Origin: Arthrobacter sp. ERGS1:01
GTDB taxonomy: Bacteria > Actinomycetota > Actinomycetes > Actinomycetales > Micrococcaceae
NCBI RefSeq assembly: GCF_001281315.1
Contig: NZ_CP012479.1
Span: forward strand, 3,720,001-3,784,000
Direction: 5' to 3'
DNA: 64,000 bases
Below, one piece after another: positions 37,462 through 61,567 of this stretch. How positions within the stretch are numbered: position 1 is the first letter of the stretch; the number at the start of each line of letters is the position of its first letter. The notes beneath the pieces are model-generated. The model searched no databases. It saw only the letters and a program-made list of their open reading frames with translations, and was not told the origin of the DNA. Position numbers and translations under genes: made by a program.

Positions 37462-40400
37462 TTACAGCCCGGCGAAGAGCTCCAGCTGGTACAGCGTTGC
37501 CGCGCCCGCCACGCGCAGCCGGTAGCTTGCAAAATCAGCGTCGGGCAGCTGGAACGGCCGGGTTTGGCGCTCCCACCGGAACGTTTCGCCGCTGCGTGAA
37601 TCAAGCACGCTCCAGGCGTCGCCGTCGTTGGAGCCCTCCAGGACCCAGTCCGTCAGTTCGGGCCCGGCCGTGACCGTGTACAGGGACACCGCGGTGGGGG
37701 CGTCGAAGGCATAGGCCGCCCAGCCGCCGTCGGGCATCGAAAGGGCGTCGGCGGAGGTGTTGTTGAACAGCAATTCCGCGCCGCTCACGCTCGCACTGAA
37801 GGCGCCGCCCGGGCTGGTGAGGTCCGACGTCGGTGCCCGGCTTGCGCCCGGCGCGTCAAGTGACGGCGGGGCTTCCCCGGGGGCGGATCCCCAGGCGGAC
37901 GGTTCGGCGCCCATGACGAATTCCAGCGTGCCGCCGGCGGCCAGGGTGGCGTGGTCGATGAACGTGCTCTCCCACGGGGCACCGTTGACGCTCAGCGACT
38001 GGATGTAGACGTTCCCGGCGCCGTGGTTCAGCGACTTGATGCCGATCGTGGTGCCCGTGGCGAGCCGGACCGTGGCGGATTCGTAGAGCGGGGAGGTGAT
38101 AATGAAGCCGCCCGAGGCCAGGCTCAGCGGGTAGAAGCCGAGTGCGGCAAAGACGTACCAGGCGGACATTTCGCCGTTGTCCTCATCCCCCGGGTAGCCC
38201 TGGCCGATCTCGCTGCCGGTGAAGAGCCGGGCCACGGATTCGCGGGTGATCGCCTGGAGCTTGTGCGGGGCGTCGGTGAACGCGTACATGAACGGGGCAT
38301 GGTGGGCCGGCTGGTTGGAGATGCCGAACATGCCCATGCGGATGTTGCGGGCCTCGACCATCTCGTGGATGACGTCCCAGTAGGAGCCCTTGAATTCGTG
38401 CCGGGCGGTTTCCGGGGTGCCGAAGTATGCGTCGAGCTTCGCCTCAAGCCCCTTGCGCCCGCCGTACAGTTCGGCCAGGCCGGCACCGTCCTGCGGCACG
38501 CTGAAGGCCATGCCCCAGGCGTTGGTTTCGGTGTAGTCGTGGCCCCACACGCGGGGGTCGAAGGTGTCGGGGGTGTGGCTGAAGGCGCCGGCGCTGTCGC
38601 GGCCCTGGAAGAAGTCCACGGCCGGGTCGAACAGCAGCCGGTAGCCGCGGGCCCGGTTCGCGAAGTAGGCGGCATTGGCGGCGTATTCGGCCCGGCGCGG
38701 ATCAGTCACCGAGGCGCGCTCCAGCAGCAGTTCGGAGTACCGGGCCACGCCGTAGTCGCTGATGGCGTTTTCCAGCGACCAGGACATGGCCTCGTGCGTG
38801 GCGTCGCTGGGGATGTAGCCGGCAAAGATGCCCACGTCCAGGCCCTTGCGGCCCACGGCGGAGGCGTCCGAGGGTACGGTGGCGTTGCGCAGCGCCGAAT
38901 CGTAGGCCTCGGCCAGGTCAAAGTTGCCCACGCCGTTGATGGCGGCGTCGGCAAACACCAGGTCGCTGCTGGTGCCCACCATGCAGTCCGAGTAGCCGGG
39001 GGCCGACCAGCGCGGGGTCCAGCCGCCGTCGCGGTAGTGCTCCACGAATCCGTCCAGCATGTTCCCGGCCTGCTCGGGGTCCAGCAGGCACAAGGCGGGC
39101 CACTCCGTGCGGTAGGTGTCCCAGAAACCGTTGTTCACGTACGTGCTGCCGGGGTTGATCTGTGCCCCCGTGAATTCGCTGCCATGGGCGTCCGCGGGCT
39201 TGAGGAAGCTGGCGTACTGCCATTTCGGCTCCGTTGCCGTGCCGGCGTTTTCGGCTGCGGAATTCGGGTAGAGGAACATTCGGTACAGATTGGAGTACAG
39301 CGTGGTGAGCTGGTCGGCGCTGGCGCCCTGGACCGCAATTACGCCCAACCTGTCATCCCACAGCTGTTGGGCGCGGGCGGAAACCTCGTCCACGGTGTCC
39401 CCGGCCGGGATTTCCAGTTCCAGGCTGTGGCGGGCCTGGGCGATGCCGATGAAGGACGTGGCCGCCCTGACGTTGACCGTCCTGTCCCCGCCGAGGGCGA
39501 ACCGGACCCAGCCGGCAACGTCACCGTGGCCGCCGTTGCGCATGCCGGAGTCCGTCACGGGCCGGTCGGCGGTGGCGTAGAAGTACATGCGCAGGGCCGT
39601 GGAGTTTTCGCTGCCGTCCACGTAGCCGCTGAGCACGGGCAGGCCGTCGCTGGTTGTGGTGATGGTCAGCGAGCCGTTGTTGTCCAACTGGTCCAACAGC
39701 AAGGTGGCGTCCTCGCCGGGGTACTCAAAGCGCAGCGCGACGGCGTGGTCGGTGGGCGCCGCCGTGGCCACAAGGCCGTTGTCGAGGGCCACGCGGTAGC
39801 GGTGCGCCGTGGCTTCCTCGTTCGCGTGCCGGAACGTGAGCGCGCGGGCGGCGGGGTCGGCGTTGGGAGTGCCGGCGGAGCTGCCGGGCATGAACTGCAG
39901 CACGCTGTAGTCGTTCATCCACGGGCTGGGCTGGTGGGAAATGCTCAAGGCCTGCAATGCGCTGACGCCGGGCGCGACGTCGTGCTGGTGGTAGGCGTAC
40001 ACCCACTGGGTGGTGCGGGCGTCCGTGCACGGGGTGAGGAAGTTGAAGCCGTACGGCACGGCGGTGGCGGGCAGGGTGTTGCCGCGCGATACGCCGCCGG
40101 AGGAGTGCGTGCCGCGCGTGGTCAGCACGTGCTCGCTGGGGCGCCGGTGCTCCGGCGGGGCAGCCACGGTGCGCAGTTCGACGTCGTCGAGCCAGCCTTC
40201 CAGCGTGGCGTCCACCAGCTCCGCGGGCAGGTGCACGGCGGCCTCGATGGCGGTCACGGTGCGTCCGGCCAGCGGGGACAGATCGATCGTGCGGATGTTC
40301 CACTGGTCGGGAACCAGCCCCTTGGACTCCCCCTGCGCCCGGGCGGAGGCGCCGAAACCGTATTGATCCGCCAGAGCAGTGTCCGAAAGCCGGGCGCCGT

Positions 40401-40782: not shown

Positions 40783-40806
40783 TATACTTAAGCGCATTAG
40801 TTGCGC
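40783..40806 (+). promoter_or_regulatory. Candidate GH18 promoter -10 with LacI-type operator
   Basis: TATACT (40783-40788) is a good -10. The motif CTTAAGCGCATTAG (40787-40800) overlaps its end and differs by one base from the site at the lacI promoter. A further inverted repeat GCGCA-TTAGT-TGCGC spans 40792-40806. The region lies between divergent GH92 and GH18, so one repressor could control both. Confidence 0.6.
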
Positions 40807-41726: not shown

Positions 41727-41727
41727 C

Positions 41728-41805: not shown

Positions 41806-41832
41806 CGGCCCGCAGCCACCCAAAGGAGAACC

Positions 41833-42432: not shown

Positions 42433-43743
42433 CTACGCCGTTTCGCAGTAGTCCAGCAGCAGCTCGCAGAACATGGAGTTTGCCCAGGAAAACCAGGGCC
42501 GGGTGAACTGTGAAGGGTCGTCCGGGAGGAATCCCTCGTGCATGAATCCGGTCCCGCCGTCGGTGTCCCGGAGCATTTGGAGGATCCGCCACTTTTCCTT
42601 CCGCGTGTCCGCCGTCAGGCCCTGGACGGCGAGCGCAATGTGCCAAATGTAGCCGGGCGGGGTGTGCGGGCTGCCGATCCCTTCGGCGTGGGTGCCGCGG
42701 TGGAAGAACGGGTTGCCCTCGCTGAGGATGAACTTCCGGGTTGTCTGGTACAGCGGATCCGCAAGGTCCACGCCACCGGTCAGCGGCAGGGACAGCAGGC
42801 TGGGCATGTTGGCGTCGTCCATCAGCAGGGCGTTGCCCAGTCCGTCCACCTCGTAGGCGTAGATGAAACCAAATTCGGGGTGGTTGACCACGCCGTGCGT
42901 GGCGATGCCGGCAGCGATCTCGGCGGCCAGGGCCAGTGCGCCGGCCTCCAGCTCCGGGTCGGCGTACACCTCGCGGGCGATCTCGGCCACCTGCAGCAGC
43001 GCCGCCTTGGCGAAGTGGTTGCCCGGCACGTTGTAGCTGTAGACGCAGGCGTCATCGCTGGGCCGGAAGCCGGCCCACGTCATGCCCGTGACGGCGGTTG
43101 CCGGGCCCAGGCCGTCGCGGGAGAGCGTCTCGCTGGCCAGCGTGGTGTTGCGGACAAAGCGGTATGCGGAGTTGGCCTCGTGGTCCTGCTCCAGCCGCCA
43201 CTGGGCCACGACGGTCTTGAGTGCCTCGTGGACGGGGCCCGTGAAGATGTCGACGCGGTTGCTGCGGCGCCAGAGCTGGTGTGCCAGCTGGATGGGGAAC
43301 GCGAGCGAGTCGATCTCGTACTTCCGCTCCCAGATCCAGGGATCCTCGCAGGCATCCTCGGGGTCATAGGAGGCGCCGTTGGGCTCCTGGTTGAAGGCGT
43401 TCGCATAGGAATCCTGCGCGATGCAGCCAAACTGGCGCCGGACAAGCCCGGCAAGCACGTCGTAAAGTTCGCCATCGGGCTCCACGAACCTCAGGAACGG
43501 GAGCATCTGGGCCGAGGAGTCCCGCAGCCACATGGCGGGGATGTCGCCGGTGATGACGAACGTGGTGCCGTCCGGCTCCCGGGTGAGTGTCGTGTCCAGG
43601 GTGTTGCGCATGCAGGCGACGAACATTTCCGACAACTTTTCATCGCCCGTGACCTCGCGAATGGCCGCTGCGCTGCGCAGCAACTCCGCCTCGAGGAAGC
43701 CCGCGGCGGACCCCACTTTTTCCTGCAAACCGTTGGACGTCAC
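42433..43743 (-). CDS. GH125 exo-alpha-1,6-mannosidase
   Basis: A 436-residue (alpha/alpha)6 hydrolase. FVITGDIPAMWLRDSSAQML (about residues 63-82), WIWERKYEIDSLAFPIQLAH and GSPHTPPGYIWHIALAVQGL are clear GH125 signatures. The family cuts alpha-1,6-mannose from N-glycan cores in inverting fashion and needs alpha-1,2/1,3 branches removed first. No signal peptide. GTG 43743 is preferred because GGAGGT lies seven bases upstream; an in-frame GTG at 43758 is possible. Divergent from the ROK regulator. Confidence 0.92.
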   Translation of the reverse strand: MTSNGLQEKVGSAAGFLEAELLRSAAAIREVTGDEKLSEMFVACMRNTLDTTLTREPDGTTFVITGDIPAMWLRDSSAQMLPFLRFVEPDGELYDVLAGLVRRQFGCIAQDSYANAFNQEPNGASYDPEDACEDPWIWERKYEIDSLAFPIQLAHQLWRRSNRVDIFTGPVHEALKTVVAQWRLEQDHEANSAYRFVRNTTLASETLSRDGLGPATAVTGMTWAGFRPSDDACVYSYNVPGNHFAKAALLQVAEIAREVYADPELEAGALALAAEIAAGIATHGVVNHPEFGFIYAYEVDGLGNALLMDDANMPSLLSLPLTGGVDLADPLYQTTRKFILSEGNPFFHRGTHAEGIGSPHTPPGYIWHIALAVQGLTADTRKEKWRILQMLRDTDGGTGFMHEGFLPDDPSQFTRPWFSWANSMFCELLLDYCETA

Positions 43744-43789
43744 AACGCCCACCTCCACTTCGTCGTTGGAACCTTTTAAGGAATATCAG

Positions 43790-43978: not shown

Positions 43979-45211
43979 ATGGACGTCGACCACATCCCGT
44001 TCGCCAGACCCGGCAACCGCGGCGCAGCAGCCCCGGTCCAGCAATCCGTCAGCGACCCCGCGTTGGAGCTGCTGGCACTTGTCGCCACCGAATCCGCCGT
44101 TTCGCGCGCCGAGCTGGCCCGCGTGCTGAAGGTGGCGCCGTCCACCGTGTCCCTGCGCGTGAATGAACTCCTCAGCGCCGGGTTGCTGGTGGAAACCGGA
44201 GACGGAAACTCCACGGGTGGTCGGAAGCCGCGAAGCCTGCAGTTGAACCACTCGGCCGGGCACGTGCTGGTGGCCGACCTCGGCGCGCACCACGTCCGTG
44301 TGGGTGTCATGGACCTCTCCGGGGCATTGCTCGCCTCCGACGCCATTGAACTTGACGTTGCCCAGGGCCCGGAAAAATCCCTGGCCGTCATCGCCGGCCT
44401 GTTCGATGAACTGGCCGCCGGCATCAGCTCCAGCACGCTGCGTGGCGTGGGCATCGCCCTTCCCGGGCCCGTGGACTACGACGCCGGCTGCGTCGACTCC
44501 CCCGCCCGCATGCCCGGCTGGCACCGTTTCCCCATCAGGGACTGGCTGGCCGGACATTACAACGTCCCCGTCTTTTGCGACAACGACGCCAACATGATGG
44601 CCCTGGCCGAACACACGCTGCGCCAAACCTCCGCCGACCACGCCAAGAAGCCGCGCAACACCTTGTTCATCAAGGCCGGCGCCGCGATCGGCTGCGGGCT
44701 GATCGCGGACGGCCTCGTGTACCGCGGCTCCACCGGAACGGCCGGCGACATCACGCACGTGCGGGTCCGCGCGGCGGGCGAGCGGGCCTGCAGCTGCGGA
44801 AACCTCGGCTGCCTCGAGACGGTCGCCAGCGGTTCGGCAATCGTTGCCGACCTGGTGGCCGCGGGCGTGGACGTGGCGGACCTGAGCGCCGTGGTGGAGT
44901 TGGCGAACAACGCCGACGCCGTGGCCACGACGCAGATCCGCGGGGCCGGGCGCCTGCTGGGCGAAATGCTGTGCAGCATCGTCAACTTCGTAAATCCTGA
45001 CTATGTGGTGCTGGGTGGGGCGCTGGCCCAGGTCGAGCCGTACGTGGCCGCGATCAGGAGCCAGCTCTACGAGGGCTGCCACCCCCTGGCCACGAAGAAC
45101 CTGACCATTGAAAAGTCCCTGGCCGGCCCCCACGCCGGCATGATCGGCATTGGCGTGCTGAGCCTGCGCGAGGTGCTGCGGACCAGCACGCTGGTGCCCT
45201 CGGGGATCTAG
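43979..45211 (+). CDS. ROK-family transcriptional regulator
   Basis: A 410-residue NagC/XylR-type repressor. Residues about 28-75 are a winged HTH (SRAELARVLKVAPSTVSLRV). The ROK sugar-kinase-like domain follows, with the zinc motif CSCGNLGC (Cys271, 273, 278) and LETVASG. The effector is usually a sugar or amino-sugar phosphate. Start ATG 43979 follows AAGGAG; the open frame upstream is non-coding promoter. Its place between GH125 and the transporter implies control by mannose- or GlcNAc-derived signals. Confidence 0.93.
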   Translation: MDVDHIPFARPGNRGAAAPVQQSVSDPALELLALVATESAVSRAELARVLKVAPSTVSLRVNELLSAGLLVETGDGNSTGGRKPRSLQLNHSAGHVLVADLGAHHVRVGVMDLSGALLASDAIELDVAQGPEKSLAVIAGLFDELAAGISSSTLRGVGIALPGPVDYDAGCVDSPARMPGWHRFPIRDWLAGHYNVPVFCDNDANMMALAEHTLRQTSADHAKKPRNTLFIKAGAAIGCGLIADGLVYRGSTGTAGDITHVRVRAAGERACSCGNLGCLETVASGSAIVADLVAAGVDVADLSAVVELANNADAVATTQIRGAGRLLGEMLCSIVNFVNPDYVVLGGALAQVEPYVAAIRSQLYEGCHPLATKNLTIEKSLAGPHAGMIGIGVLSLREVLRTSTLVPSGI

Positions 45212-45286: not shown

Positions 45287-46942
45287 TTACGCCGCCTTGA
45301 GCGCCGTCGTCGTCATGGCGACGTTGTTGTAGCCGCCAATGCTCGAACGGTAGTCGAATGCGTCATCCTTCATGGTCGGGAATCCCGTGAAGTTCTTCGT
45401 GGTCCACATCTCCCCGGATCCGCCACTCATGTAGGCCAGGTACGGGGCACCCTCGGCAACGGCCTTTTGGATGATCTGCAACTGCGCGGTGATCTCCGCG
45501 GTGCTCGACCGGGGCAATGCCTGCAACGCCGCCAACGCGTCGTTGCCGGCCTTGGGCATCTTCCACAGGCCCTGGTTGCCGTAGCCGTTCTTTTGCGGAC
45601 CAGGCTCCAGGTTCTTCCAGCTGTAACCCTGGAAGGCGTTGTAGGCGGAGCCGTTGAGGTTGGCCGTCCACACCATCATTTCGTAGTCGTGGATCTTGGC
45701 CTGGAACACGGTGTCCGGAGTGGGCATGTACGCCACGTCCACCCCCAGGTTCTTCTTCCACTGGGCGATGATCATGGGCGCCACCACGATGTCGGTGGGC
45801 TGGTCCAGGTTCACGAACAGGCGGACGGGGTAGGACTTGCCGTCCTTGCTCAGGTTCCCGCCTTCCACACTCCAGCCGGCCGATGCCAGATCGGCCTTGG
45901 CCTGCTCCACGTTCGGCGTCAGGGGCTTGGCGTACTCGGGAAGCAGGGCGTCCTTGTACAGCTCAAGATTCAGGCCGGTGACCGATGGCACCGTATAGCC
46001 GGTACCCACGGCCTTCGTGGCCGCCGTCAGGTCCACCGAATCGCGGAACGCCCGGCGCACCGCCGCATCCGTGAAGGGCGGGTAGGTGCAGCCAAACAGC
46101 ACGCCGCGGGAGGAGCCGTCCGGGAAGTACTCGTAGTGGTTGTCCTTGCCCATGCCCAGGAACTGGGTCAGGACCCCCGCCCCGCCGCCGTCGGCCCAGT
46201 CGACCTTGCCGGAGGAAATCGAGGACTGGATGTTGCCCACGGTACCGCTGGGAATGATGTGGACCTCCTTGACACCCTTGGCCTTGCCGCCCCAGTAATC
46301 ATCACGCAAGGTGATCTGGACCTGCTGGCCGGAGAAGGACTTGAGCACGCCCGGGCCGGTGCCCACCGGCTTCTTGTCCACGTACTTGTCGTGGTCGCCC
46401 TGGGCTTCGTAGATGTGCTTCGGGTAGACCGGGTAGTACATGGACATGTTGGTGTCCTGCTGGTACTTCGGCAGGTTGTAGTTGACCTGCACCGTGTACT
46501 CATCGAGGGCCTTGACGGGCTCCCTGACCAACCCGTCCGGGCTGGGATCGCCGAGCACAAAGTTGTACGTGTAGACGACGTCGTCGGCCGTGAACGGCTT
46601 GCCGTCGCTCCAGGTGACGCCCTTGCGGAGGGTGTAGGTGGCCGTGCGGCCTCCGTTCGTGTACACGACCTTTTCGGCCAACGCCGGCTCGAGCTTGCCG
46701 CCGTCGCGGGTGGAAACCCGGAACAACGTCTCGTAGAAGAAGCCGATCCCCGGCCCGCCCGTGCCGCCGCCGTTGGCATTGAAGTTCTCCGGGAACTGGT
46801 TCGAGGCGCCGGCGTCGGCCCCCAGGGTCAGGACCCCGCTGCCGGCGTCGCCGCCGCCCACCGCACCCTTGCAACCCACCATGGTCAGCGCCGAACCGGC
46901 AATGATCGCGCCCAGGAAACCCCTGCGGCCAAAATCCCCCAT
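45287..46942 (-). CDS. ABC substrate-binding lipoprotein, family 5 (copy 2)
   Basis: A 551-residue extracytoplasmic binding protein. FGRRGFLGAIIAGSALTMVGCKG is a twin-arginine signal with a lipobox Cys. The SBP_bac_5 fold is shown by LEPALAEKVVYTNGGRTATY, LRKGVTWSDGKPFTADDVVY and YPVYPKHIYEA. Family-5 proteins carry peptides and also manno- and other oligosaccharides. It has the same length as its upstream neighbour and is clearly a tandem duplicate. It follows that gene by nine bases. Last gene of the transporter operon. Confidence 0.92.
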   Translation of the reverse strand: MGDFGRRGFLGAIIAGSALTMVGCKGAVGGGDAGSGVLTLGADAGASNQFPENFNANGGGTGGPGIGFFYETLFRVSTRDGGKLEPALAEKVVYTNGGRTATYTLRKGVTWSDGKPFTADDVVYTYNFVLGDPSPDGLVREPVKALDEYTVQVNYNLPKYQQDTNMSMYYPVYPKHIYEAQGDHDKYVDKKPVGTGPGVLKSFSGQQVQITLRDDYWGGKAKGVKEVHIIPSGTVGNIQSSISSGKVDWADGGGAGVLTQFLGMGKDNHYEYFPDGSSRGVLFGCTYPPFTDAAVRRAFRDSVDLTAATKAVGTGYTVPSVTGLNLELYKDALLPEYAKPLTPNVEQAKADLASAGWSVEGGNLSKDGKSYPVRLFVNLDQPTDIVVAPMIIAQWKKNLGVDVAYMPTPDTVFQAKIHDYEMMVWTANLNGSAYNAFQGYSWKNLEPGPQKNGYGNQGLWKMPKAGNDALAALQALPRSSTAEITAQLQIIQKAVAEGAPYLAYMSGGSGEMWTTKNFTGFPTMKDDAFDYRSSIGGYNNVAMTTTALKAA

Positions 46943-46951
46943 GCCGGTCCC

Positions 46952-48659: not shown

Positions 48660-49683
<1,024 letters not shown>

Positions 49684-49691
<8 letters not shown>

Positions 49692-50739: not shown

Positions 50740-51662
50740 ACCAGTGCTCCAATCTTGGCCTGCTCTGCGGCATCCTGGCGTGACTTTTGCTTGAGGAACC
50801 TGCGCATCAGGGTCATGCGCTTGGAGCTCAGGGTCGGGTTGGTGACTTCGTCCAGGCCGAAGTTGATCATGGTGGTGGCGAAGCCGATCAACGCCAGGCA
50901 GAGCCCGGGAGGCGCGAACCACCACCACTGTCCGTTGAACAGGGCGTTCTGGGTGGTGGCGTAGTTGATCATCAGGCCCCAGCTGGGCTGGGCGGCGCTG
51001 CCAATGCCGAGGAAGGCGAGGGAGGCCTGCATGCCGACGCCGGCGGCGATCAGGCGCAGGAACATGGGGGATATGATGCCCGAGAGGTGCGGGAGCACCT
51101 CGACCATGATGACCCGCAGCGGGTGTTCGCCGATGGTGCGCAGGGCTGCGGTGAAGTCGCGGCCGCGCAGCGACATGGCCTGGGCGCGGATGGCGCGTGC
51201 GCCGCCCGTCCATTCCAGCCCGCCGATGATGATGGAGACGAGCAGCACGTTGGCGTTCTGCAACAGCCCGGCAATCATGAACAGGATCGCGAACGACGGG
51301 ATGTTCTGGACCACCAGGATGACGCCGTTGAGGAACCTGTCCACGGCGCCGCCGGAGAAACCGGCAATCGTGCCGATGACCACCGAGAGGGCGGTGCCGA
51401 TGACGGCGGACATCAGGCCCACCAGCATGGAGCTGCGGGCTCCGTACAGCAGCCAGGACAGCGCATCCTGGCCGGAGCTCGTGGTGCCCATCCAATGTTG
51501 GGCGGACGGTGCCTGGCCCATGGCGTTTTCGTCAAACATGTAGGGGGTCCAGCCGAGCACGTGCTCGCTGAACGGCTGGCCGAAGGCTGCGGCGAGCAGG
51601 AAGACGGCCATGATGACCAGGCCGATCTGGACCTTGCGCAGTGACATGAATCTGGCGAACAT
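50736..51662 (-). CDS. Oligopeptide/oligosaccharide ABC permease (OppC-like)
   Basis: A 308-residue permease with six spans. HWMGTTSSGQDALSWLLYGA and RGRDFTAALRTIGEHPLRVI (coupling loop) place it in the DppC/OppC family. Its start is three bases after the OppB-like stop. Confidence 0.92.
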   Translation of the reverse strand: MFARFMSLRKVQIGLVIMAVFLLAAAFGQPFSEHVLGWTPYMFDENAMGQAPSAQHWMGTTSSGQDALSWLLYGARSSMLVGLMSAVIGTALSVVIGTIAGFSGGAVDRFLNGVILVVQNIPSFAILFMIAGLLQNANVLLVSIIIGGLEWTGGARAIRAQAMSLRGRDFTAALRTIGEHPLRVIMVEVLPHLSGIISPMFLRLIAAGVGMQASLAFLGIGSAAQPSWGLMINYATTQNALFNGQWWWFAPPGLCLALIGFATTMINFGLDEVTNPTLSSKRMTLMRRFLKQKSRQDAAEQAKIGALV

Positions 51663-52944: not shown

Positions 52945-52958
52945 CTTAAGCGCCTAAG
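52945..52958. promoter_or_regulatory. LacI-type operator upstream of the GH38 operon
   Basis: CTTAAGCGCCTAAG is an imperfect palindrome about one base from TTAAGCGCTTAA. It lies 85 bp before the GH38 ATG, within the 273-bp region shared with the divergent transporter operon. A weak promoter (TTGATG 52932-52937, 17 bp, TAAGTG 52955-52960) would be overlapped. Confidence 0.55.
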
Positions 52959-53042: not shown

Positions 53043-56000
53043 ATGCATGACAACCACAGCTTGATCGAGAACCGGTTACAGCGAGTCCTGAAGGAACGGA
53101 TCATTCCGTCCATCTACACCCACCTGGCCGATCTTGAGATGACGGCGTGGCACGTCGAGGGCGGCCTGGGCGAACCCGTTGACCCCGCAGTGGCACTGCC
53201 CGGCGGAGACGCCGCCGTCAAGAGCACAGCGGGCGTGGACTACCAGCCGTTCGCCGTCGGCCAGGAGTGGGGACCGGCCTGGGGCACGAGCTGGATCCAC
53301 GTGACCGGCGTCGTACCGGCACAGGCGGCCGGCAAGGCCGTGGAAATGGTCATCGACTTAGGCTGGGACCGCCACTCCCCCGGATTCCAGGCCGAAGGTC
53401 TGGCGTACAACCCGGACGGCAGCGTCATCAAGGCGCTGAACCCCTTCAACTCCTGGCTTCCCGTCACCAAGGACGCCAAGGGGGGCGAGCAGATCGACTT
53501 CTACCTTGAGGCGGCCGCCAACCCGCTGATCCTTGACCACAACCCGTTTGCGCCCACCGAGCTCGGCGAAAAGTCCACGGCCGGCGACAAGCCCCGGTAC
53601 AAGGTGGCCCGCGCCGACATCAATGTCTTCAACCAGGGCGTCTGGGAACTGGTCCAGGACCTCGAGGTGCTGTACCAGCTCCAGCACGAGCTTGACCTGG
53701 GCGACCCCCGCCGCTGGGACATCCTGTACGCGATCGAACGCGCCCTGGACGCCGTGGTCCTGAAGGACATTTCCGGCACCGCCGCGGCCGGCCGCGAGAA
53801 GCTGGAAAAGGTCCTGGCCCAGCCGGCCAACGCCAGCGCCCACCAGCTCACCGCGATCGGCCACGCCCACATCGACTCGGCCTGGCTCTGGCCCGTGCGG
53901 GAAACCGTCCGCAAGGTGGCCCGCACCAGCTCCAACATGGTGAACCTGCTGGCCGAATATCCCGACATGCAGTTCGCCATGTCCTCCGCCCAGCAGTACG
54001 AATGGATCAAGGAACAGCGCCCCGAGGTCTTCGCCAAGGTCAAGGAGGCCGTGGCCGGCGGCCGCTTCATCCCCGTGGGCGGCATGTGGGTGGAATCCGA
54101 CACCAACATGGTGGGCTCGGAAGCCATGGCCCGCCAGTTCACCTTCGGGCAACGGTTCTTCACCGAGAACTTCGGCATCCAGTGCGAGGAAGTCTGGCTG
54201 CCCGACTCCTTCGGCTACTCGGCCGCGCTGCCGCAAATCGTGAAGCTGGCCGGCGCCAAGTGGTTCCTGACCCAGAAGATCTCCTGGAACACCGTCAACA
54301 AGTTCCCGCACCACACCTTTAACTGGGAGGGCATCGACGGCACCCGCGTCTTCACCCACTTCCCGCCCGTCGACACCTACAACTCCGACCTTTCAGGCGG
54401 CCAGCTGGCCCACGCCGTGCGCAACTTTCGCGACAAGGGGGCCTCCAACCACTCGCTGGCACCGTTTGGCTGGGGCGACGGCGGTGGCGGACCCACGCGT
54501 GAGCAGATCGCCCACGCCCGCCGCACCAAGAACCTCGAAGGCTCGGCCCAGGTCACCATCCAAACCCCGAAGGAGTTCTTCACGGCGGCCGAGGCGGAAT
54601 ACTCCAACGCCCCCGTCTGGAAGGGAGAGCTGTACCTTGAACTGCACCGCGGCACCTACACCTCGCAGGCGCTGACCAAGCAGGGCAACCGCCGCAACGA
54701 ACACCTGCTGCGCGAGGCCGAGCTATGGAGCGCCACGGCCGCCGCCCGCGGCCGGATCGAGTACCCGTACGAGGAACTGGACCGGATCTGGAAGCTGGTC
54801 CTACTGCACCAGTTCCACGACATCCTGCCCGGCTCCTCCATCGCCTGGGTGCACCGCGAAGCGGCCGAACGCCACGCGGAAATGACCGCGGACTTGAACG
54901 TGATCATCGCCCGCGCCCAGGAGGCACTCGCGGCATCGGTGACCGAGCCTGTCGAGGTCTCGGCAAGCTCGACCACCGCGAACCTCGTGTTCAACGGCTC
55001 CCCGTTTGCCCGCAACGGCGTGGCGGCGTTCTCGGCCGGCGTTGCGGCAGCAGCCAAGGCCCCCGTGACGGTGGAGCGGGACGGCTCCGACGTCGTCGTC
55101 GGCAACGGCCTGATCACCGTCCGCTTCGACGCCGACGGCGTGACCACCTCCATGGTGGACGTGGCCGCGGACCGCGACGTGGTGCCGGCCGGCCAGGGCG
55201 CCAACCTGCTCCAGCTGCACGCCGACTTCCCGAACATGTGGGACGCCTGGGACATCGACGAGTTCTACAAGAACACCGTCACCGATGTGCGCGAACTCGA
55301 TTCCCTGGAAACCGCCACGGAAGCCGACGGCACCGTTGTGGTCTCGATCAAGCGCTCCTTCCGCAACTCGGTGGTGCGCCAGCAGGTGCGGATCGCCCCG
55401 GATTCGAAGACCGTCACGGTGGCCAACGACATCGACTGGCACGAACAGGAGACGCTGCTCAAGGCCGCGTTCCCCATCGACGTGCACGCCGATTCGGCCC
55501 GCTTCGAGACCCAGTACGGCCACATCCAGCGCCCCACGCACGAGAACACGTCCTGGGACAGCGCCCGCTTTGAGGTGTGCGCGCACCGCTGGGTCCACGT
55601 CAGCGAGCCCGGTTTCGGTGCCGCGGTCATCAACGATTCCACCTACGGCCACGACGTCTCCCGCCATCTGGGCGGGGACGGCTCCTCCTTCACCACCGTC
55701 CGGCTGTCCCTGTTGCGCGGCCCGAAGTTCCCGGACCCCGAGACCGACCAGGGCAACCACACCTTCAACTACGCCTTCGTGGTGGGCGCGGACGTGGCCG
55801 ACGCCGTGGCCGCCGGTTACGCCCTGAACCTGCCCGAGCGCGCCCTCACCGGCGCCCCGGTGGCGCCCTTGGTCACCACGAGTTCCGCGGCCGCGTTGGT
55901 TGAGGCCGTCAAGCTGGCCGATGACCGCAGCGGTGATGTGATCGTGCGCCTGTACGAGCCTCTGGGCGCCCGCGCCAAGGTCACGCTCAACGCCTCCTTC

Positions 56001-56141
56001 GAGGTGGTCTCCGCCGCGGAGAACAACCTGCTGGAGCAGCCGCACGACGGCGGTTCGCTCACCTTTGCCGACGGTGTCGCCACCGTGGTGCTCCGCCCGT
56101 TCCAGATCGTCACCCTCCGTCTCAAGAAAGGCAACAAATGA
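53043..56141 (+). CDS. GH38 alpha-mannosidase
   Basis: A 1032-residue retaining alpha-mannosidase. Zinc-site residues lie in IGHAHIDSAWLWP (His276, Asp278) and the nucleophile Asp388 in WLPDSFGYSAALPQI. LLHQFHDILPGSSIAWVHRE (about 595) adds the late zinc His. The C-terminal half is the GH38 beta-sandwich. No signal peptide. Codons 632-645 come from an inverted pair of the dispersed repeat, encoding TEPVEVSASSTT in the linker before the beta domain. First gene of a four-gene operon; the stop overlaps the next ATG by four bases. Confidence 0.95.
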   Translation: MHDNHSLIENRLQRVLKERIIPSIYTHLADLEMTAWHVEGGLGEPVDPAVALPGGDAAVKSTAGVDYQPFAVGQEWGPAWGTSWIHVTGVVPAQAAGKAVEMVIDLGWDRHSPGFQAEGLAYNPDGSVIKALNPFNSWLPVTKDAKGGEQIDFYLEAAANPLILDHNPFAPTELGEKSTAGDKPRYKVARADINVFNQGVWELVQDLEVLYQLQHELDLGDPRRWDILYAIERALDAVVLKDISGTAAAGREKLEKVLAQPANASAHQLTAIGHAHIDSAWLWPVRETVRKVARTSSNMVNLLAEYPDMQFAMSSAQQYEWIKEQRPEVFAKVKEAVAGGRFIPVGGMWVESDTNMVGSEAMARQFTFGQRFFTENFGIQCEEVWLPDSFGYSAALPQIVKLAGAKWFLTQKISWNTVNKFPHHTFNWEGIDGTRVFTHFPPVDTYNSDLSGGQLAHAVRNFRDKGASNHSLAPFGWGDGGGGPTREQIAHARRTKNLEGSAQVTIQTPKEFFTAAEAEYSNAPVWKGELYLELHRGTYTSQALTKQGNRRNEHLLREAELWSATAAARGRIEYPYEELDRIWKLVLLHQFHDILPGSSIAWVHREAAERHAEMTADLNVIIARAQEALAASVTEPVEVSASSTTANLVFNGSPFARNGVAAFSAGVAAAAKAPVTVERDGSDVVVGNGLITVRFDADGVTTSMVDVAADRDVVPAGQGANLLQLHADFPNMWDAWDIDEFYKNTVTDVRELDSLETATEADGTVVVSIKRSFRNSVVRQQVRIAPDSKTVTVANDIDWHEQETLLKAAFPIDVHADSARFETQYGHIQRPTHENTSWDSARFEVCAHRWVHVSEPGFGAAVINDSTYGHDVSRHLGGDGSSFTTVRLSLLRGPKFPDPETDQGNHTFNYAFVVGADVADAVAAGYALNLPERALTGAPVAPLVTTSSAAALVEAVKLADDRSGDVIVRLYEPLGARAKVTLNASFEVVSAAENNLLEQPHDGGSLTFADGVATVVLRPFQIVTLRLKKGNK
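54938..54977 (+). repeat. Inverted pair of the dispersed repeat, in frame in GH38
   Basis: A 40-bp block made of a direct copy (GGTGACCGAGCCTGTCGAG) and an inverted copy (CTCGGCAAGCTCGACCACC). It is translated within the mannosidase linker and keeps the frame. Confidence 0.8.
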
Positions 56142-57481
56142 GCTCCGCTCCCACAGCTCGCACGGCGCCGCTGCGCTGGGGTGTCAACTACACCCCCAGC
56201 GAGAGCTGGTTCCACTCCTGGCAGGACTTCAACATTGACGCCGTCAAGGCCGATCTGGAGTCGATCGCCTCGATCGGCCTCGACCACGTGCGGATCTTCC
56301 CGCTGTGGCCGTTGCTGCAACCCAACCGCACCCTGATCCGCCCGGCGGGCATTGCCGACGTGGGCAAGGTGGTGGACGCCGCCGCCGAGTTCGGCCTGGA
56401 CGTCTCCGTGGACGGGCTGCAGGGGCACCTCTCCAGCTACGATTACCTGCCGTCCTGGGTGACCAGCTGGCACCGCCGGAACATCTTCACCGACCCGGAC
56501 GTCATTGCCGCCCAGGCCGAACTCGTCACGGCCCTCGCCACCGAGGTCACTGCGCGACCCAACGTGCTGGGCATGACCCTGGGCAACGAGACCAACCAGT
56601 TCGCGGTGGCCCGCCACCCCGAAAAGCATGAAACGACTCCGGCCCAGATGGGCGAGTGGATCAACACCCTCATCGACACGGTTAAGAAGGTGTGGCCTCA
56701 GGGCATGCACCAGCACAGCTTCGACGACAACGTGTGGTTCATCGACTCCTCCCCCGTGACCCCGCGCCATGCGGCGTCGCTGGGCGATGCGACCACCGTG
56801 CACTCGTGGGTCTTCACTTCGGTGTCCAGGCTGTTCCCGGCCGGCCACCCGGCCAGGACGTTGTTTGCCGACTACCTGGTGCAGCTGGCCGATTCGTGGG
56901 CCGAAACCCCCACCCGCCCCATCTGGCTGCAGGAAATCGGCGCGCCGTACCCGGCCGTGCCGAAGGAGCAGGCCGCGGACTTCCTGGAGGCGAGCCTGCG
57001 CCCGCTCATGGATACGCCGAACCTGTGGGGCACCACCTGGTGGTGCTCGCACGACGTCAGCCGCAAGCTGGCCGACTTCCCGGAACTGGAATACACGCTG
57101 GGCCTGCTGGACTCGGACCGGAAGGTCAAACCCGCCGGCCGGCGCCTCGCCGAGATGATCCAGGAAGAAAAGCGCAACCCCACCGCTCCGGTGCAGCGCG
57201 GCACGGCGCTGTCCTTCGACTCCGGCGACGAGGCAACGGGCGTTGGCCGCTCCGTGACCGATCCCTCCGGCGAAGTCTTCGCGGCCTGGCTGGAACTTGC
57301 CGCCCGCGGCGAGAAGCCCACCCTGGTGCGCGAAGCCAAGCTGGCCGACGCCGGCTACCTCGCCGCCCGCGGCATCAACAACGTCGTCACGGCTGAGGCG
57401 GTTGGCGCCCGGCCCGCCGGGGTGGGCGATGTCCCCGTGGTCAGCGAAGCAAACATTTGGGCGGAAACGGTGGAAGCATGA
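56138..57481 (+). CDS. GH5_18-like beta-mannosidase
   Basis: A 447-residue TIM-barrel enzyme. LRWGVNYTPSESWFHSWQDF is typical of subfamily GH5_18. The acid/base is Glu151 in GMTLGNETNQF and the nucleophile Glu266 in IWLQEIGAP. SWVFTSVSRLF and GTTWWCSHDVSRKL line the active site. Known GH5_18 enzymes from bifidobacteria cleave Man-beta-1,4-GlcNAc from the N-glycan core. No signal peptide. Overlaps by four bases with GH38 and with GH20, so it is fully embedded in the operon. Confidence 0.87.
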   Translation: MSSAPTARTAPLRWGVNYTPSESWFHSWQDFNIDAVKADLESIASIGLDHVRIFPLWPLLQPNRTLIRPAGIADVGKVVDAAAEFGLDVSVDGLQGHLSSYDYLPSWVTSWHRRNIFTDPDVIAAQAELVTALATEVTARPNVLGMTLGNETNQFAVARHPEKHETTPAQMGEWINTLIDTVKKVWPQGMHQHSFDDNVWFIDSSPVTPRHAASLGDATTVHSWVFTSVSRLFPAGHPARTLFADYLVQLADSWAETPTRPIWLQEIGAPYPAVPKEQAADFLEASLRPLMDTPNLWGTTWWCSHDVSRKLADFPELEYTLGLLDSDRKVKPAGRRLAEMIQEEKRNPTAPVQRGTALSFDSGDEATGVGRSVTDPSGEVFAAWLELAARGEKPTLVREAKLADAGYLAARGINNVVTAEAVGARPAGVGDVPVVSEANIWAETVEA

Positions 57482-59061
57482 GCGCATTGAACCTGGTCCC
57501 GGCACCCACATCGGTGACCGAGCACCACGGCTGGACGGCCGTCCCCGAGGCGTTTGGCATCGAATCCTTCATCCCCGTGGGCGGCTGGCTGCTGCGCTCC
57601 CTGGAGGATTGGCTCGACGCTCGCATCCAGCCCGTATCCACCACCGGCGAGGCGTGGCTGCGCATCACCGAGGACGCCGCCCTTCCGGCCGGCGCCTACC
57701 GCCTGGGCATCAACCCCACCGGCATCACGGTGTCCGCCGCCGGCGTGGAGGGTGTCATCAACGCGGCCCAGACACTGCGCCAGCTGGTCGGCTCCCGGGG
57801 GTTCGCGCCCGCACCGGTGAGGGGCGCCGGCGTCGAACTTCCCAACGTGAGCATCGAGGACGCGCCGTCGTTCGCGTTCCGCGGCGTGCACTTGGACGTG
57901 TCACGGCACTTCGTGCCCCAGGACGAGCTGCTGCGGTTCATCGACCTGGCCGCCGCGCACAAGCTCAACGCGCTGCACCTGCACCTGACCGACGACCAGG
58001 GCTGGCGCATGGAGATCCCCGCGTTCCCGCGGCTGGCCGAGGTTTCCTCCTGGCGCAAGGACACCATGGAGGTGTACACGGAGGACGGCCGGTTCATGAA
58101 GGGCCGCCCGCACGGCGGATGCTATTCGCTGGACGAGCTGCGCGAGGCCGTTGCGTATGCGAAGGACCGCGGCGTGGTGATCATTCCCGAGATCGACCTG
58201 CCCGGGCACTCCGTGGCGGCCATTGCCGCGTACCCGCAGCTGGGCGTCGGGGCACCCGAAGTGGAGGTGTGGACGGGGTGGGGCGTGAACGATTGCATCC
58301 TGGACCCCTCCGATTACACGCTGGACTTCTTCCGCACCGTGCTCGACACCGTGATGGACGTTTTTGACGCCCCCGTCATCCACCTGGGCGGCGACGAGGT
58401 CCCGTACGAGCGCTGGCACGCCTCCGAAACCGTGCGGCAGCGCGCCGCCGATCTGGGCCTGGAGTCCGTGGAACTGCTGCACGGCTGGTTCCTGGGCCAG
58501 CTCGCCGCGCATTTGGAGAGCCGGGGACGCCGGGCCGGGGTGTGGCATGAGGCCGTCAGCTCCACGATGCCCACGACCGCCGTCGTCAACGCCTGGGGCG
58601 GGCTGGACACCGTGGTGCACAGCCTGGCCGCCGGCTACGACACCACCATTTCCTGCTGCTCGCACCTGTACCTGGATTTCCGGGAGAACGACAATCCCCG
58701 CGAACCCAGCGGTTGCAGCCCCCTGCTGTCCACGGAAAAGCTGTACAACTTTGAGCCGCTGGAGCCGAGGGTGCTGGCCGCCGCCGAATCCACGGGGGCT
58801 GCCATCACCGGCATCCAGGCCCAGGTTTGGACGGAATACCTGGACACGCGCGAGATCCGGGACTACAACACGTACCCGCGGTTGAGCGCGTTTGCCGAGC
58901 TGGCCTGGAGCGAGGACCGCGATTATGCGGACTTCCTGGAGCGCCTGGCGGACGGGCACCTTGACCGGCTTTCGGCCGCCGGGGTGGACTTCCGTCCGCT
59001 CGACGGGCCGCATGCCTGGCAGGAGCGCCCGGACATCGCGGCGAAGGCGGGCCGCAGCTAG
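57478..59061 (+). CDS. GH20 beta-N-acetylhexosaminidase (first copy)
   Basis: A 527-residue enzyme. The N-terminal GH20b-like domain ends in ITVSAAGVEGVINAAQTLRQ. The barrel begins FRGVHLDVSRHFVPQDELLR, and the catalytic Asp306-Glu307 pair lies in IHLGGDEVPYERW. VWTEYLDTREIRDYNTYPRL forms the GlcNAc pocket. It removes terminal beta-GlcNAc by substrate assistance. ATG 57478 overlaps the GH5 stop; the longer in-frame start is not needed. Confidence 0.94.
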   Translation: MSALNLVPAPTSVTEHHGWTAVPEAFGIESFIPVGGWLLRSLEDWLDARIQPVSTTGEAWLRITEDAALPAGAYRLGINPTGITVSAAGVEGVINAAQTLRQLVGSRGFAPAPVRGAGVELPNVSIEDAPSFAFRGVHLDVSRHFVPQDELLRFIDLAAAHKLNALHLHLTDDQGWRMEIPAFPRLAEVSSWRKDTMEVYTEDGRFMKGRPHGGCYSLDELREAVAYAKDRGVVIIPEIDLPGHSVAAIAAYPQLGVGAPEVEVWTGWGVNDCILDPSDYTLDFFRTVLDTVMDVFDAPVIHLGGDEVPYERWHASETVRQRAADLGLESVELLHGWFLGQLAAHLESRGRRAGVWHEAVSSTMPTTAVVNAWGGLDTVVHSLAAGYDTTISCCSHLYLDFRENDNPREPSGCSPLLSTEKLYNFEPLEPRVLAAAESTGAAITGIQAQVWTEYLDTREIRDYNTYPRLSAFAELAWSEDRDYADFLERLADGHLDRLSAAGVDFRPLDGPHAWQERPDIAAKAGRS

Positions 59062-59063: not shown

Positions 59064-60542
59064 ATGGGATTGCAAACCGTGCCTGCCGTGCAGCATTGGA
59101 ACGACGACGCCGGCCCCGCCTGGGTGCCGACGCCCGGGACCCGTGTGGTGCTGCAGGCACGGGATGCGCTCCCGTTGGGGGAACTGGCTGCGCGCCTGGC
59201 CGGCGAGCTGGGCATCCGGTGGTCGAGCTTGGGGCCCCGGTGGTCGAGCTTGTCGAGACCAGGCGACATCGAGCTCCGGCTCGAGCCGCTGGCCGCGCAG
59301 TCAGCCGAGGCTTATCGGCTGACTGCCGGCGCGGTGCTCACCATCACCGCACCCACCGAGGCCGGGCTGTACTACGGCACCCGCACCCTGTTGCAGTGGC
59401 TGCGCACCGGCAAGCCCGTCCGCGGCACCGTGACCGACTGGCCCAACTACGCCCAGCGCGGGGTCATGGTGGATGTGGGCCGCAAGTATTTTTCCCCGCA
59501 GTGGCTCGCCCGGTTCATTGAAAACATGGGCTGGTTCAAGCTGAACCACCTGCATTTACACCTGAACGACAACGTCGGCGTGGGCCTTGAATGCGCCAGC
59601 CACCCGGAAATCGTCAGTGAAAAACACCTGTCCTATGCGGAGCTTGACGGCATCCTGGCCGTCGCCGCAGCCCATCACGTCACGGTGGTCCCGGAATTCG
59701 ACACCCCCTCGCATGCGGCCGCCATCGTGGCCGCCCACCCGGACCTTGCCATCACCGACCGGCACGGGACCGTCGAGAACGACAAGCTCGACGTGGCCCG
59801 CAGCGAGGCACAGGACTTGGTGGCCGACGTGGTCCTGGAATGGGCGCAGCGTTTCCCCGGACCGTATTTCCACCTGGGCGGCGACGAGTTCTTTGCCGCA
59901 CCGTGGGAGCCGGAGGACCACCGGCACCCGCTGCGCTACCCCAGCCTGACCCGCTTTGCGGAGGCCGCGACGGGCGCCCCGGCCACGCCGCTGGACGGCT
60001 ACGTGCTGTACCTGAACCGGCTCAATGCGCTGCTCCGGGTGCAGGGGAAGCGGGCGCGGGTCTGGAACGACCACATCCATCCGGGAATCGGGGTGGCGCT
60101 GGACCTCGACGTCGACGTCGAGGTGTGGATCCGCTGGAACACCTCCTACCCCAGCGCCCGGGACCTCCACGACGCCGGCTACACGCTGGTGAACCGCAAC
60201 GGCGACCACCTGTACTTCGTACTCTCCAGCGATTCGGTACCGGCCGCGTCGGGGCGGAAATCCGCGCAGGGCATCTACGAACTGTGGCATCCGCACCGCT
60301 TTATGGGGGCCGCCGGCGGTGCGGCGGACCTCGACCTGGACCCGTCCGTGCCCGTGGCCGGGGCCGTCATGTCCATCTGGTGCGACCACCCGCCGGCCAT
60401 GAGCGAGGAACAGGTGGCCGGGCAAACCCTCGACTGGATCCGATCCCTGAGCCAGCAGCTGTGGGGCTCACCCAAGCCGGCGGCAAGCTACGCGGAATTC
60501 AGCACGCTGTTCGGCCCGGTGGGCCTGCCGCCGGCCGCCTAG
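59064..60542 (+). CDS. GH20 beta-N-acetylhexosaminidase (second copy)
   Basis: A 492-residue GH20 enzyme, clearly divergent from its neighbour. YAQRGVMVDVGRKYFSPQWL is the barrel entry, HLHLHLNDNVGVG strand 2 and FHLGGDEFFAAPW the catalytic Asp274-Glu275 pair. Residues about 52-66 (RWSSLGPRWSSLSRPGD) come from two repeat copies in the N-terminal domain. Two GH20 types suggest different linkages, for example GlcNAc from chitobiose versus antennae. Two bases after the first GH20. Its stop overlaps that of lacI on the other strand. Confidence 0.92.
   Translation: MGLQTVPAVQHWNDDAGPAWVPTPGTRVVLQARDALPLGELAARLAGELGIRWSSLGPRWSSLSRPGDIELRLEPLAAQSAEAYRLTAGAVLTITAPTEAGLYYGTRTLLQWLRTGKPVRGTVTDWPNYAQRGVMVDVGRKYFSPQWLARFIENMGWFKLNHLHLHLNDNVGVGLECASHPEIVSEKHLSYAELDGILAVAAAHHVTVVPEFDTPSHAAAIVAAHPDLAITDRHGTVENDKLDVARSEAQDLVADVVLEWAQRFPGPYFHLGGDEFFAAPWEPEDHRHPLRYPSLTRFAEAATGAPATPLDGYVLYLNRLNALLRVQGKRARVWNDHIHPGIGVALDLDVDVEVWIRWNTSYPSARDLHDAGYTLVNRNGDHLYFVLSSDSVPAASGRKSAQGIYELWHPHRFMGAAGGAADLDLDPSVPVAGAVMSIWCDHPPAMSEEQVAGQTLDWIRSLSQQLWGSPKPAASYAEFSTLFGPVGLPPAA
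59218..59260 (+). repeat. Two direct copies of the dispersed repeat, in frame in GH20
   Basis: A partial copy (GGTGGTCGAGCTTGG, from 59218) and a complete copy (59239-59260) lie head to tail and encode RWSSLGPRWSSLSRP. They use a different reading frame from that used by the copies in the MFS and GH38 genes. Confidence 0.8.
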
Positions 60543-61567
60543 CGGGCTTGCTTCGAGGTTGCCCCGAGCACTGTTGAATCGCGCACCACGAGTTCCGGCG
60601 TCGGCATTTGGACGTCGGCGGGCACGTTGCCGGCGATGAGTTCCAGCAGGCTGTGGGCGGACCTGGCACCCAGCACAGCCGGGTCGCGGCGCAGGGCCGT
60701 GAGCTGCGGACGGACGGCCGTCCAGATGATGTTGTCCTCCCAGGCCACCACGGCCATGTCGCGCGGGACCACCACGCCGTGTTCGTTGAACGTGGCCAGC
60801 CCGGCCAGCGCCAGGACCTCGTTGTCGTAGATGACGGCCGTGGGGCGGTCGGCGAGCGCCAGGATCTCCTCGGTGGCCTCGATGCCCGAGTGCTGGGAGT
60901 AGTCAGTCAGGTAGCTGCTGTGCGCGCGCATCCCCAGGTCCTTGGACACGCGGGCGAAGGCCTCCACCCGGCGGCGGGTGTGCAGGAGGTCGTTGATGCC
61001 GGCCACGTGGGCAATGTGCGTGTGGCCCTGCCCGGACAGGTGTTCAACGATCAGGCCCATGGCGGCGCCGTCGTCAATGCTCACGCCCGGCAGGCCCATT
61101 TCGGAACAGGCCCCGATGAAAATGGCCGGCAGTCCCAGGGCGCCCAACTGGGCGGGGCGGGGATCATCCACGCGCGGGTCGACCACGAACACGCCGTCCA
61201 CGCGGCGTTCGGACCACCAGCGCTGGTACGTTTCCTGCTCCTCCTGGATGGTTTCGACGATCTGCAGCACCAGGGCCTGGGACTCGGCGTTGATGACCGA
61301 TTCAATGCCGGCGATGAGCCGCAGGAAGAAGGAGTCGTTGCCCAGGCCTTCGTTGCTGCGCGCCAGCACCAGGCCGACGGCGCCGGCCTTGGCCCCGGAC
61401 AAGGCGGCCGCGGCCACGTTGCGGCGCCAGCCCAGCTTTTCGGCGGCCTCGTGGACGCGCCGCACGGTGGCCGGTGACACCCCGGCCTTCCCGTTCAGGG
61501 CAAAGGAGACGGCGGCCTCGGACAGTCCCGTGACTTCGGCGATTTGGCGCATGGTGGGCCGGGGCAT
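60539..61567 (-). CDS. LacI-family transcriptional regulator
   Basis: A 342-residue repressor. The N-terminal HTH and hinge (PTMRQIAEVTGLSEAAVSFALN, then VSPATVRRVHEAAEKLGWRR) are followed by a periplasmic-binding-like effector domain (AGAVGLVLARSN, DGVFVVDPRV, THIAHVAGINDLLHTRRRVE). ATG 61567 has AAGGA. It lies convergent with the GH20 gene, with overlapping stop codons. A palindrome in its own promoter spacer recurs upstream of GH18/GH92 and GH38, so it most likely represses the N-glycan locus and itself. Confidence 0.92.
   Translation of the reverse strand: MPRPTMRQIAEVTGLSEAAVSFALNGKAGVSPATVRRVHEAAEKLGWRRNVAAAALSGAKAGAVGLVLARSNEGLGNDSFFLRLIAGIESVINAESQALVLQIVETIQEEQETYQRWWSERRVDGVFVVDPRVDDPRPAQLGALGLPAIFIGACSEMGLPGVSIDDGAAMGLIVEHLSGQGHTHIAHVAGINDLLHTRRRVEAFARVSKDLGMRAHSSYLTDYSQHSGIEATEEILALADRPTAVIYDNEVLALAGLATFNEHGVVVPRDMAVVAWEDNIIWTAVRPQLTALRRDPAVLGARSAHSLLELIAGNVPADVQMPTPELVVRDSTVLGATSKQAR

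Follow-up and report, generated by a model that had tools for sequence, protein, structure and literature searches.

Several bacterial systems for the use of N-glycans have been described, and two of them stand closest to the locus considered here, a 24-kb group of fifteen recognised genes at positions 37462-61567 of a 64,000-nucleotide stretch (the window) of the genome of the soil bacterium Arthrobacter sp. ERGS1:01. One is NGD locus 1 of Cutibacterium acnes 266, for which adjacent GH38, GH5_18 and GH20 genes, linked ABC importer genes including one for an ATP-binding protein, and an Endo-T-like GH18 enzyme (AEE72704) without a secretion signal are reported (PMC6160142). The same features were found in Arthrobacter, where the clustered GH38, GH5_18 and GH20 genes lack signal peptides by a hydrophobicity scan and the Endo-T-like GH18 is leaderless, although for the window copy a uniform rule, applied from an upstream start, gave the opposite call. 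The Arthrobacter locus differs in including a GH92, a GH125 and a second GH20 gene, the GH125 gene of C. acnes being placed in a second locus in that account. The other is the CPL of Streptococcus pneumoniae with the importer NgtS-P1-P2, which likewise brings together GH92, GH38, GH125, GH20 and a ROK regulator and is served by an N-glycan importer (PMC5215778). There, the glycan is freed by the GH85 enzyme EndoD, whereas no PF03644 match was found in the Arthrobacter genome (control positive in 1 of 14 genomes); the importer is encoded away from the CPL with no ATPase listed beside it, whereas that of Arthrobacter lies in the locus; and the GH92 is modelled as acting before release, GH5_18 and GH18 being absent from the set listed in that paper.

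Further parallels are found in other Actinobacteria. The closest matches to the Arthrobacter GH5_18 include the solved bifidobacterial enzymes BlMan5B (6mp2) and BlGH5_18 (7lqx). The solved GH38 enzymes 7ufr-7ufu, among the closest matches to the GH38, are presumably bifidobacterial too. A GH38/GH5_18 pair has been noted in Bifidobacterium breve and B. longum (PMC6160142). Actinomycete loci with a CUT1-type importer, in Streptomyces, Lentzea and relatives in the Micrococcaceae, resemble the Arthrobacter locus in having LacI, GH5_18, GH38 and often a GH18 or GH85 endo-beta-N-acetylglucosaminidase (ENGase), but differ in that the importer has a family-1 substrate-binding protein (SBP) and the ENGase a signal peptide. 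Thus, of the parallels to bifidobacteria and Bacteroides drawn in a first-pass annotation of the window, the general point stands, since this kind of locus is already known, and the closest described systems are those of C. acnes and S. pneumoniae rather than of Bacteroides. What sets the Arthrobacter locus apart is its variant importer and its leaderless ENGase.

The best reading of the window genes is an N-glycan utilisation locus, probably for high-mannose glycans, with a pathway well supported by homology. The cytoplasmic location claimed for this pathway in the first-pass annotation is supported: the enzyme families do not lie outside N-glycan use, and the hydrophobicity scan (not SignalP) gave no convincing signal peptide in any locus hydrolase. 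The N-glycan core is indicated as the target by the joint presence of GH5_18 and an Endo-T-like ENGase. The locus is more than a chance grouping, because two of its three divergent promoters share an operator with the lacI promoter and because the gene order is kept in Arthrobacter silviterrae as far as the contig reaches. With a probability of roughly 0.55, we propose that a LacI-controlled locus serves to swallow, then cut, glycans with a GlcNAc2 core (GlcNAc, N-acetylglucosamine), this order of steps being suggested by the variant importer and the leaderless ENGase. Two lipoprotein SBPs of the twin-arginine translocation (Tat) type would capture free N-glycans, probably high-mannose, with the GlcNAc2 core intact, and the Opp-type ABC importer would carry them into the cell. 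In the cytosol, the GH18 would cut the chitobiose, GH92 would take off alpha-1,2-mannoses, GH125 and GH38 the alpha-1,6- and alpha-1,3-mannoses, GH5_18 would split Man-beta-1,4-GlcNAc and the GH20 enzymes would free the remaining GlcNAc; without a glycan-derived inducer, LacI would repress the promoters.

Predicted enzymes and gene layout

All seven hydrolases (GH92, GH18, GH125, GH38, GH5_18 and two GH20) were confirmed in the families first given to them by Pfam or PDB matches (Table 1). The GH18 protein lies just over its Pfam cut-off (30.1 against 29.6 bits, 5e-7) and aligns with Endo T (4ac1) at 7.4e-75 with the DLDVE motif present. Endo T is reported to cut high-mannose N-glycans, and the bacterial members of its cluster are described from actinomycetes, C. 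acnes included (PMC3408457). Aspergillus fumigatus provides the top PDB match, a putative class III chitinase (2y8v, 1.1e-78), and a chitinase-like action is compatible with the sequence taken alone. The enzyme probably acts inside the cell. Its ATG and ribosome-binding site are kept in A. silviterrae, whose frame closes three codons upstream of the ATG, and the most hydrophobic stretch (2.02) arises from starts within the protein. A tree of 12 of 13 copies (locus L055 left out), rooted at the midpoint only, groups the two leaderless Arthrobacter copies together, adjoining that of Micrococcaceae genome G074 (87/86) among signal-bearing relatives. The copy labelled Nocardia sp. NRRL S-836 (L075) falls among Lentzea in this tree, and its label is doubtful.

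The best PDB match of the GH92 protein is NnGH92 (7nsn, 1.4e-283), and it was also aligned with Bt3990 (2wzs); the catalytic Glu/Asp and the Trp/His-Glu +1 triad are present in these alignments, the Trp and His-Glu residues being those reported for alpha-1,2 specificity (PMC10167667). GH5_18 gave no Pfam match above the cut-off but is matched by solved GH5_18 enzymes, best by ScGH5_18 (7lr7, 2.2e-150) and at 3.7e-127 by the exo-beta-1,4-mannosidase of C. acnes (6gvb, PMC6160142). Both catalytic Glu motifs are present, and hydrolysis of Man-GlcNAc is predicted from homology and these motifs. The nearest solved relatives of GH20b are lacto-N-biosidases, yet the HLGGDE motif is present.

Since alpha-mannosides are the substrates of GH92, GH125 and GH38, the main targets of the locus might instead be mannan and mannoprotein glycans from fungi or yeasts, with the N-glycan core enzymes as accessories, and NnGH92 has been studied on yeast alpha-mannan (PMC10167667). 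This reading appears improbable: the GH38-GH5_18 pair is the part most widely conserved across genera, the hydrolases of the locus all lack a convincing signal peptide and none of its genes was recognised as encoding an endo-alpha-mannanase. We also know of no role of GH5_18, Endo-T-like GH18 or GH20 enzymes in alpha-mannan, which counts against it.

Judged by layout, the transcription units are GH92, GH18, GH125, ROK, permease 1-permease 2-ATPase 1-ATPase 2-SBPa-SBPb, GH38-GH5_18-GH20a-GH20b and LacI. Likely starts at 40680 (GH92), 40854 (GH18), 43979 (ROK) and 61567 (LacI) make these genes shorter than the longest open reading frames, and the GC content is nearly even across the locus (0.62-0.69). 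A plus-strand frame of 1142 aa at 45242-48670 was rejected as a gene, having no family and lying opposite the two SBP_bac_5 genes. The frame at 41614-42279 between GH18 and GH125 gave weak P-loop matches below cut-off (AAA_33, 0.0013; Zeta_toxin family, 0.0015) and is spurious or decayed, and a tRNA-Ile called by ARAGORN on the plus strand at 38900-38982, inside the GH92 coding region, is probably a false positive.

Table 1. Genes and putative operators of the Arthrobacter locus, in window positions
Feature	Position	Strand	Basis
GH92 exo-alpha-1,2-mannosidase (predicted), 1072 aa	37462..40680	-	PF07971 2.4e-132; no signal peptide found
Putative LacI operator CTTAAGCGCATTAG, GH92/GH18 divergent promoter	40787..40800	+	motif; kept in A. 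silviterrae
GH18 Endo-T-like ENGase (predicted), 290 aa	40854..41726	+	Endo T 4ac1; no signal peptide
GH125 exo-alpha-1,6-mannosidase (predicted)	42433..43758	-	PF06824 2.8e-147; 2nvp/6rqk 5.9e-137
ROK-family regulator (NagC/Mlc type)	43979..45211	+	PF00480 5.6e-48, helix-turn-helix matches
SBPb, SBP_bac_5, tandem paralogue	45287..46942	-	PF00496 3.2e-55; Tat-like lipoprotein signal by eye
SBPa, SBP_bac_5	46952..48607	-	PF00496 2.2e-55; Tat-like lipoprotein signal by eye
Opp-type ATPase 2	48660..49691	-	PF00005, PF08352
Opp-type ATPase 1	49684..50739	-	PF00005, PF08352
Permease 2	50736..51662	-	PF00528 2.1e-15
Permease 1	51666..52769	-	PF00528 1.3e-40
Putative LacI operator CTTAAGCGCCTAAG, importer/GH38 divergent promoter	52945..52958	+	in unbroken block common with A. 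silviterrae
GH38 alpha-mannosidase (predicted)	53043..56141	+	PF01074 9.1e-97; 7ufs 6e-262
GH5_18 exo-beta-1,4-mannosidase on Man-GlcNAc (predicted)	56138..57481	+	7lr7 2.2e-150
GH20a beta-N-acetylhexosaminidase (predicted)	57478..59061	+	PF00728 2.2e-93; 3rcn 3.3e-135
GH20b, related to lacto-N-biosidases, HLGGDE motif	59064..60542	+	PF00728 5.8e-40; 8hvb 1.3e-57
LacI-family regulator	60539..61567	-	PF00356, PF13377
Putative LacI operator ATTAAGCGCTTTAC, upstream of lacI	61633..61646	-	motif

The importer and its two binding proteins

The complete Opp-type ABC importer and the ROK and LacI regulators named in the first-pass annotation were recovered by Pfam, the SBP being encoded by two tandem genes. 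The importer has SBP_bac_5 proteins and two Opp ATPases, whereas a CUT1 importer has a family-1 SBP without a dedicated ATPase. SBPa and SBPb, at the end of the importer operon, are 83% identical, and their divergence is greatest over the last quarter (residues 400-551; 73% and 77%). The duplication seems to be older than the split from A. silviterrae, because orthologues are 88-91% and paralogues 83-87% identical.

A family profile taking in Streptomyces and Nonomuraea SBPs besides those of Arthrobacter matched chitooligosaccharide binders best (3.5e-66 to 1.8e-69), followed by Thermotoga mannoside binders (6.3e-58 to 5.7e-55); the next group was far weaker (cellooligosaccharide binder 6e-38, Lmo0135 3.5e-37, AppA 3.3e-35, OppA 1.7e-32). 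Ligands were taken from PMC8449061 where named there. Several PDB labels of these chains say 'peptide'. The ligands of the matched chains that are not named in that paper are presumed here. The best matches include the cluster C-IV proteins VhCBP and TmMnBP, and Trp363, Asp365 and Trp513 (VhCBP numbering) are described as conserved in this cluster (PMC8449061). In the window SBPs the Asp is kept and the Trp positions hold Ala/Pro and Ser; since both conserved Trp are missing, the SBPs are C-IV-like but are not assigned to cluster C-IV. The predicted structure (mean predicted local distance difference test score 44) was too poor and was not used for a fold search.

The Opp class of the importer and the cytosolic ENGase would also suit uptake of N-glycopeptides or glycosyl-asparagines, for which no PNGase would be needed. 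Such a substrate is even less probable than mannan, as the SBP family is nearer to sugar-binding than to peptide-binding members, and glycosyl-asparagine is unlikely as the main substrate because no glycosylasparaginase-type gene (PF01112) was found in the genome (control positive in 5 of 14).

Operators and conservation of the locus

The sequence TTAAGCGC is common to the GH92/GH18, importer/GH38 and lacI promoters. Within the window, CTTAAGCGCNTNAG with at most two mismatches gave 7 matches against 1.97 expected, five of them at the three promoter sites and two elsewhere, and 1 of 100 shuffles reached 7; in the 4.94-Mb genome, TTAAGCGCNTNA has 4 copies, 3 of them at the locus promoters, and the reversed pattern 6, all these counts being descriptive because the motif was drawn from the locus sites themselves. 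Independent of this derivation is the conservation of both divergent-promoter sites in A. silviterrae. A nearly palindromic 14-mer like CTTAAGCGCTTAAG lies upstream of 32 of 63 LacI homologues versus 5 of 3033 other stretches of the same loci, at a threshold (at least 11 of 14 positions) that was chosen after a first look at the data. The 31 homologues without such a site include 12 from Lentzea, all with ATAAACCGGTTTAG, and 13 from Micrococcaceae.

No LacI-type operator site was found in the GH125/ROK promoter. The best NCBIfam match of the ROK protein is NagC, under its cut-off, and repeats of ACTTCNTTYRA, at 43921-43938 in the GH125/ROK region and at 52835-52845 and 52880-52890 in the importer/GH38 region, are partly conserved in A. 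silviterrae and are possibly ROK sites. As a ROK operator, this motif was not significant (6 matches versus 3.19 expected, 10 of 100 shuffles reaching 6).

Conservation was assessed in 245 genomes of the family and 16 of the genus (own genome included in both) and 394 of the class. GH5_18 was found in 29 family genomes and in 15 of the 16 congeners, GH92 in 20 and GH18 in 5 family genomes, and SBPa-like proteins in 3 family genomes and 2 congeners, own genome included; at an E value of 1e-60, SBPa was found in the own genome only among the class genomes. The search for the same gene order in other Micrococcaceae, proposed with the first-pass annotation, re-found the locus only in A. silviterrae DSM 27180, where 14 of the 15 genes were seen in conserved order with 69-95% amino-acid identity (in frame, 76% for ROK and 92% for ATPase 2); the contig stops within GH20b or shortly after it, which leaves lacI outside the sequence seen. 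In seven other Arthrobacter-type loci (L008-L014), bla-GH38-GH5_18 are arranged in the same order and orientation, with GH125 between in four, and the window locus appears to have grown by insertions into this older cluster. One of them, L009, is labelled Sporosarcina beigongshangi but has 77% identity and 66% GC, and is likely a misnamed or contaminated assembly.

The locus had also been called unusual for a Micrococcaceae genome, which holds for the Opp-type importer with twin SBPs and for the GH18 ENGase without signal peptide, but not for GH92, which also lies near GH38, GH5_18 and GH18 in the Micrococcaceae genomes G182 and G074. In G182 (L117, 3066-5447), the genes after GH92 encode an ATPase of the BadF/BcrA type, which may be a GlcNAc kinase, and a mannose-6-phosphate isomerase; these would provide the next steps for GlcNAc and mannose.

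Importer class and the location of ENGases

Among 72 GH5_18 loci with flanks of up to 10 kb, 47 have a CUT1 importer, 20 neither type and 5 an Opp-type importer (A. silviterrae, three Streptomyces and one Nonomuraea), and the last four lend the proposed pathway supporting context, as does a relative of the importer that adjoins a secreted EndoS-like ENGase in another genus. ENGases were searched in 99 stretches and signals called by one uniform rule. CUT1 loci yielded 29 ENGases, including a fragment that was dropped (L069); 27 of the 28 others have a signal by the rule, the exception (L108) lying just under the threshold and being Tat-like by eye. Seven of the CUT1 cases (L095, L096, L102-L104, L106 and L108) were fetched after the pattern had first been seen, and all agree, L108 by eye. 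Opp-type loci yielded 6 ENGases, of which 4 lack a signal by the rule (the A. silviterrae GH18 and Streptomyces GH85 enzymes in L026, L032 and L072) and 5 after inspection; those with a signal by the rule are the window GH18 and an EndoS-like enzyme of G008, a genome of another genus. The difference from CUT1 loci gave a Fisher p of 0.0015 by the rule, a value whose independence is overstated since the loci are related. Where no importer was recognised, 2 of 4 GH85 enzymes have a signal by the rule and 2 do not. G182 and G074 were counted as CUT1 in spite of a distant Opp-type operon (25-38% identity) near GH92, separated from it in G074 by a formyltransferase gene, and another grouping is arguable. 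Locus L112 (5789-9878, G115) was left out of the comparison, no importer being recognised and its GH85 gene being broken by stops; the adjacent GH38 match begins at query residue 338, as in a decaying N-glycan locus. Importer class thus mostly tracks ENGase location, CUT1 going with a signal peptide and Opp-type mostly with leaderless enzymes, in two unrelated ENGase families. No title or beginning of an abstract found in the open-licence literature states this link.

C. acnes may provide a further case. An importer of the dipeptide/oligopeptide/nickel subfamily is described for a type I-1a region with a chitinase-like enzyme (PMC3124536). Region 8 of that paper (PAZ_c15380-15460) would correspond to AEE72696-AEE72704, because nine tags are given for each, from the same strain and with the same content, and the two papers together suggest that C. 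acnes fits the pattern of Opp-type importer and leaderless ENGase.

The same pathway could also run on glycans cut outside the cell, by other organisms or another secreted enzyme, that enter as Man(n)GlcNAc, the leaderless GH18 cleaning up a minor chitobiose fraction. Import of Man3/5GlcNAc after its release by EndoD is described for S. pneumoniae (PMC5215778), and in G008 (L094, 8699-15678) a related Opp importer (SBP 40-42%) lies divergently beside the secreted EndoS-like enzyme. We regard this route as rather unlikely, though the most serious of the alternatives: GH18 and the importer have the same kind of operator, GH18 is kept in A. silviterrae, and searches of the Arthrobacter genome for GH85 and EndoS-type ENGases found none (controls positive in 1 and 3 of 14 genomes). 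A scan of this genome with PF00704 gave no match and missed the window GH18 too, so it does not show that other ENGases are absent, and a search for PNGase F (PF09113) had no positive control, as the control was positive in none of the genomes.

Several observations weigh against uptake before cutting. The uniform rule gave the window GH18 a signal peptide by reading from a distant upstream GTG instead of the likely start; this call was overruled on the comparative grounds given above (frame closure, conserved ribosome-binding site and ATG) and because the LacI operator would sit inside the supposed leader. The enzyme that frees the glycan from protein is not accounted for by the genes recognised. 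When the window SBPa is the only query, the lead of the sugar binders is narrow and 9pl3, named as peptide-binding, ranks among them; of the C-IV sugar site, both window SBPs retain the aligned Asp but neither of the two sandwiching Trp. The rule linking importer class and ENGase location is not strict, G008 being a true exception in which the ENGase beside an Opp-type importer is secreted (the same genome holds a CUT1 locus, L106, whose GH85 is secreted as well), and the leaderless Opp cases represent two lineages in the data. In favour of uptake before cutting, GH29 genes, whose products could act on core fucose at the inner GlcNAc, occur in 4 of 5 Opp loci (not in A. silviterrae), in 1 of the 47 loci with CUT1 importers and in 3 of the 20 that have neither importer, a count biased by GH29 queries taken from Opp loci. 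Relatives of the importer elsewhere are not all linked to N-glycans: on one Streptomyces plasmid the partner is GH32, and on a Tsukamurella plasmid (L098, 5801-14297; SBP 33% identical) two GH29-related genes, one clear and the other weak, lie next to it.

For the Actinobacteria we tentatively suggest, at somewhat less than even odds, two logics of N-glycan use. In the one, which goes with CUT1 importers, secreted ENGases would cut the glycan before its uptake; in the other, which goes with Opp-type sugar importers, the glycan would be taken up first and cut by cytosolic ENGases. The latter would have evolved repeatedly, using ENGases that are unrelated (a GH18 in Arthrobacter, a GH85 in Streptomyces and probably a GH18 in C. 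acnes), and would keep the whole glycan core, including the inner GlcNAc, private to the cell. Bacterial enzymes of the ENGase kind are commonly outside the cell according to a 2023 review (PMC10154615). If true, the importer class would predict where a bacterium cuts N-glycans, and with this whether neighbouring cells have a share in the glycan and whether uptake includes the inner GlcNAc, which is sometimes core-fucosylated; the lack of a signal in the ENGase reported from C. acnes NGD locus 1 would be explained as well. The conserved LacI operator would serve as a cheap genomic marker for actinobacterial N-glycan regulons.

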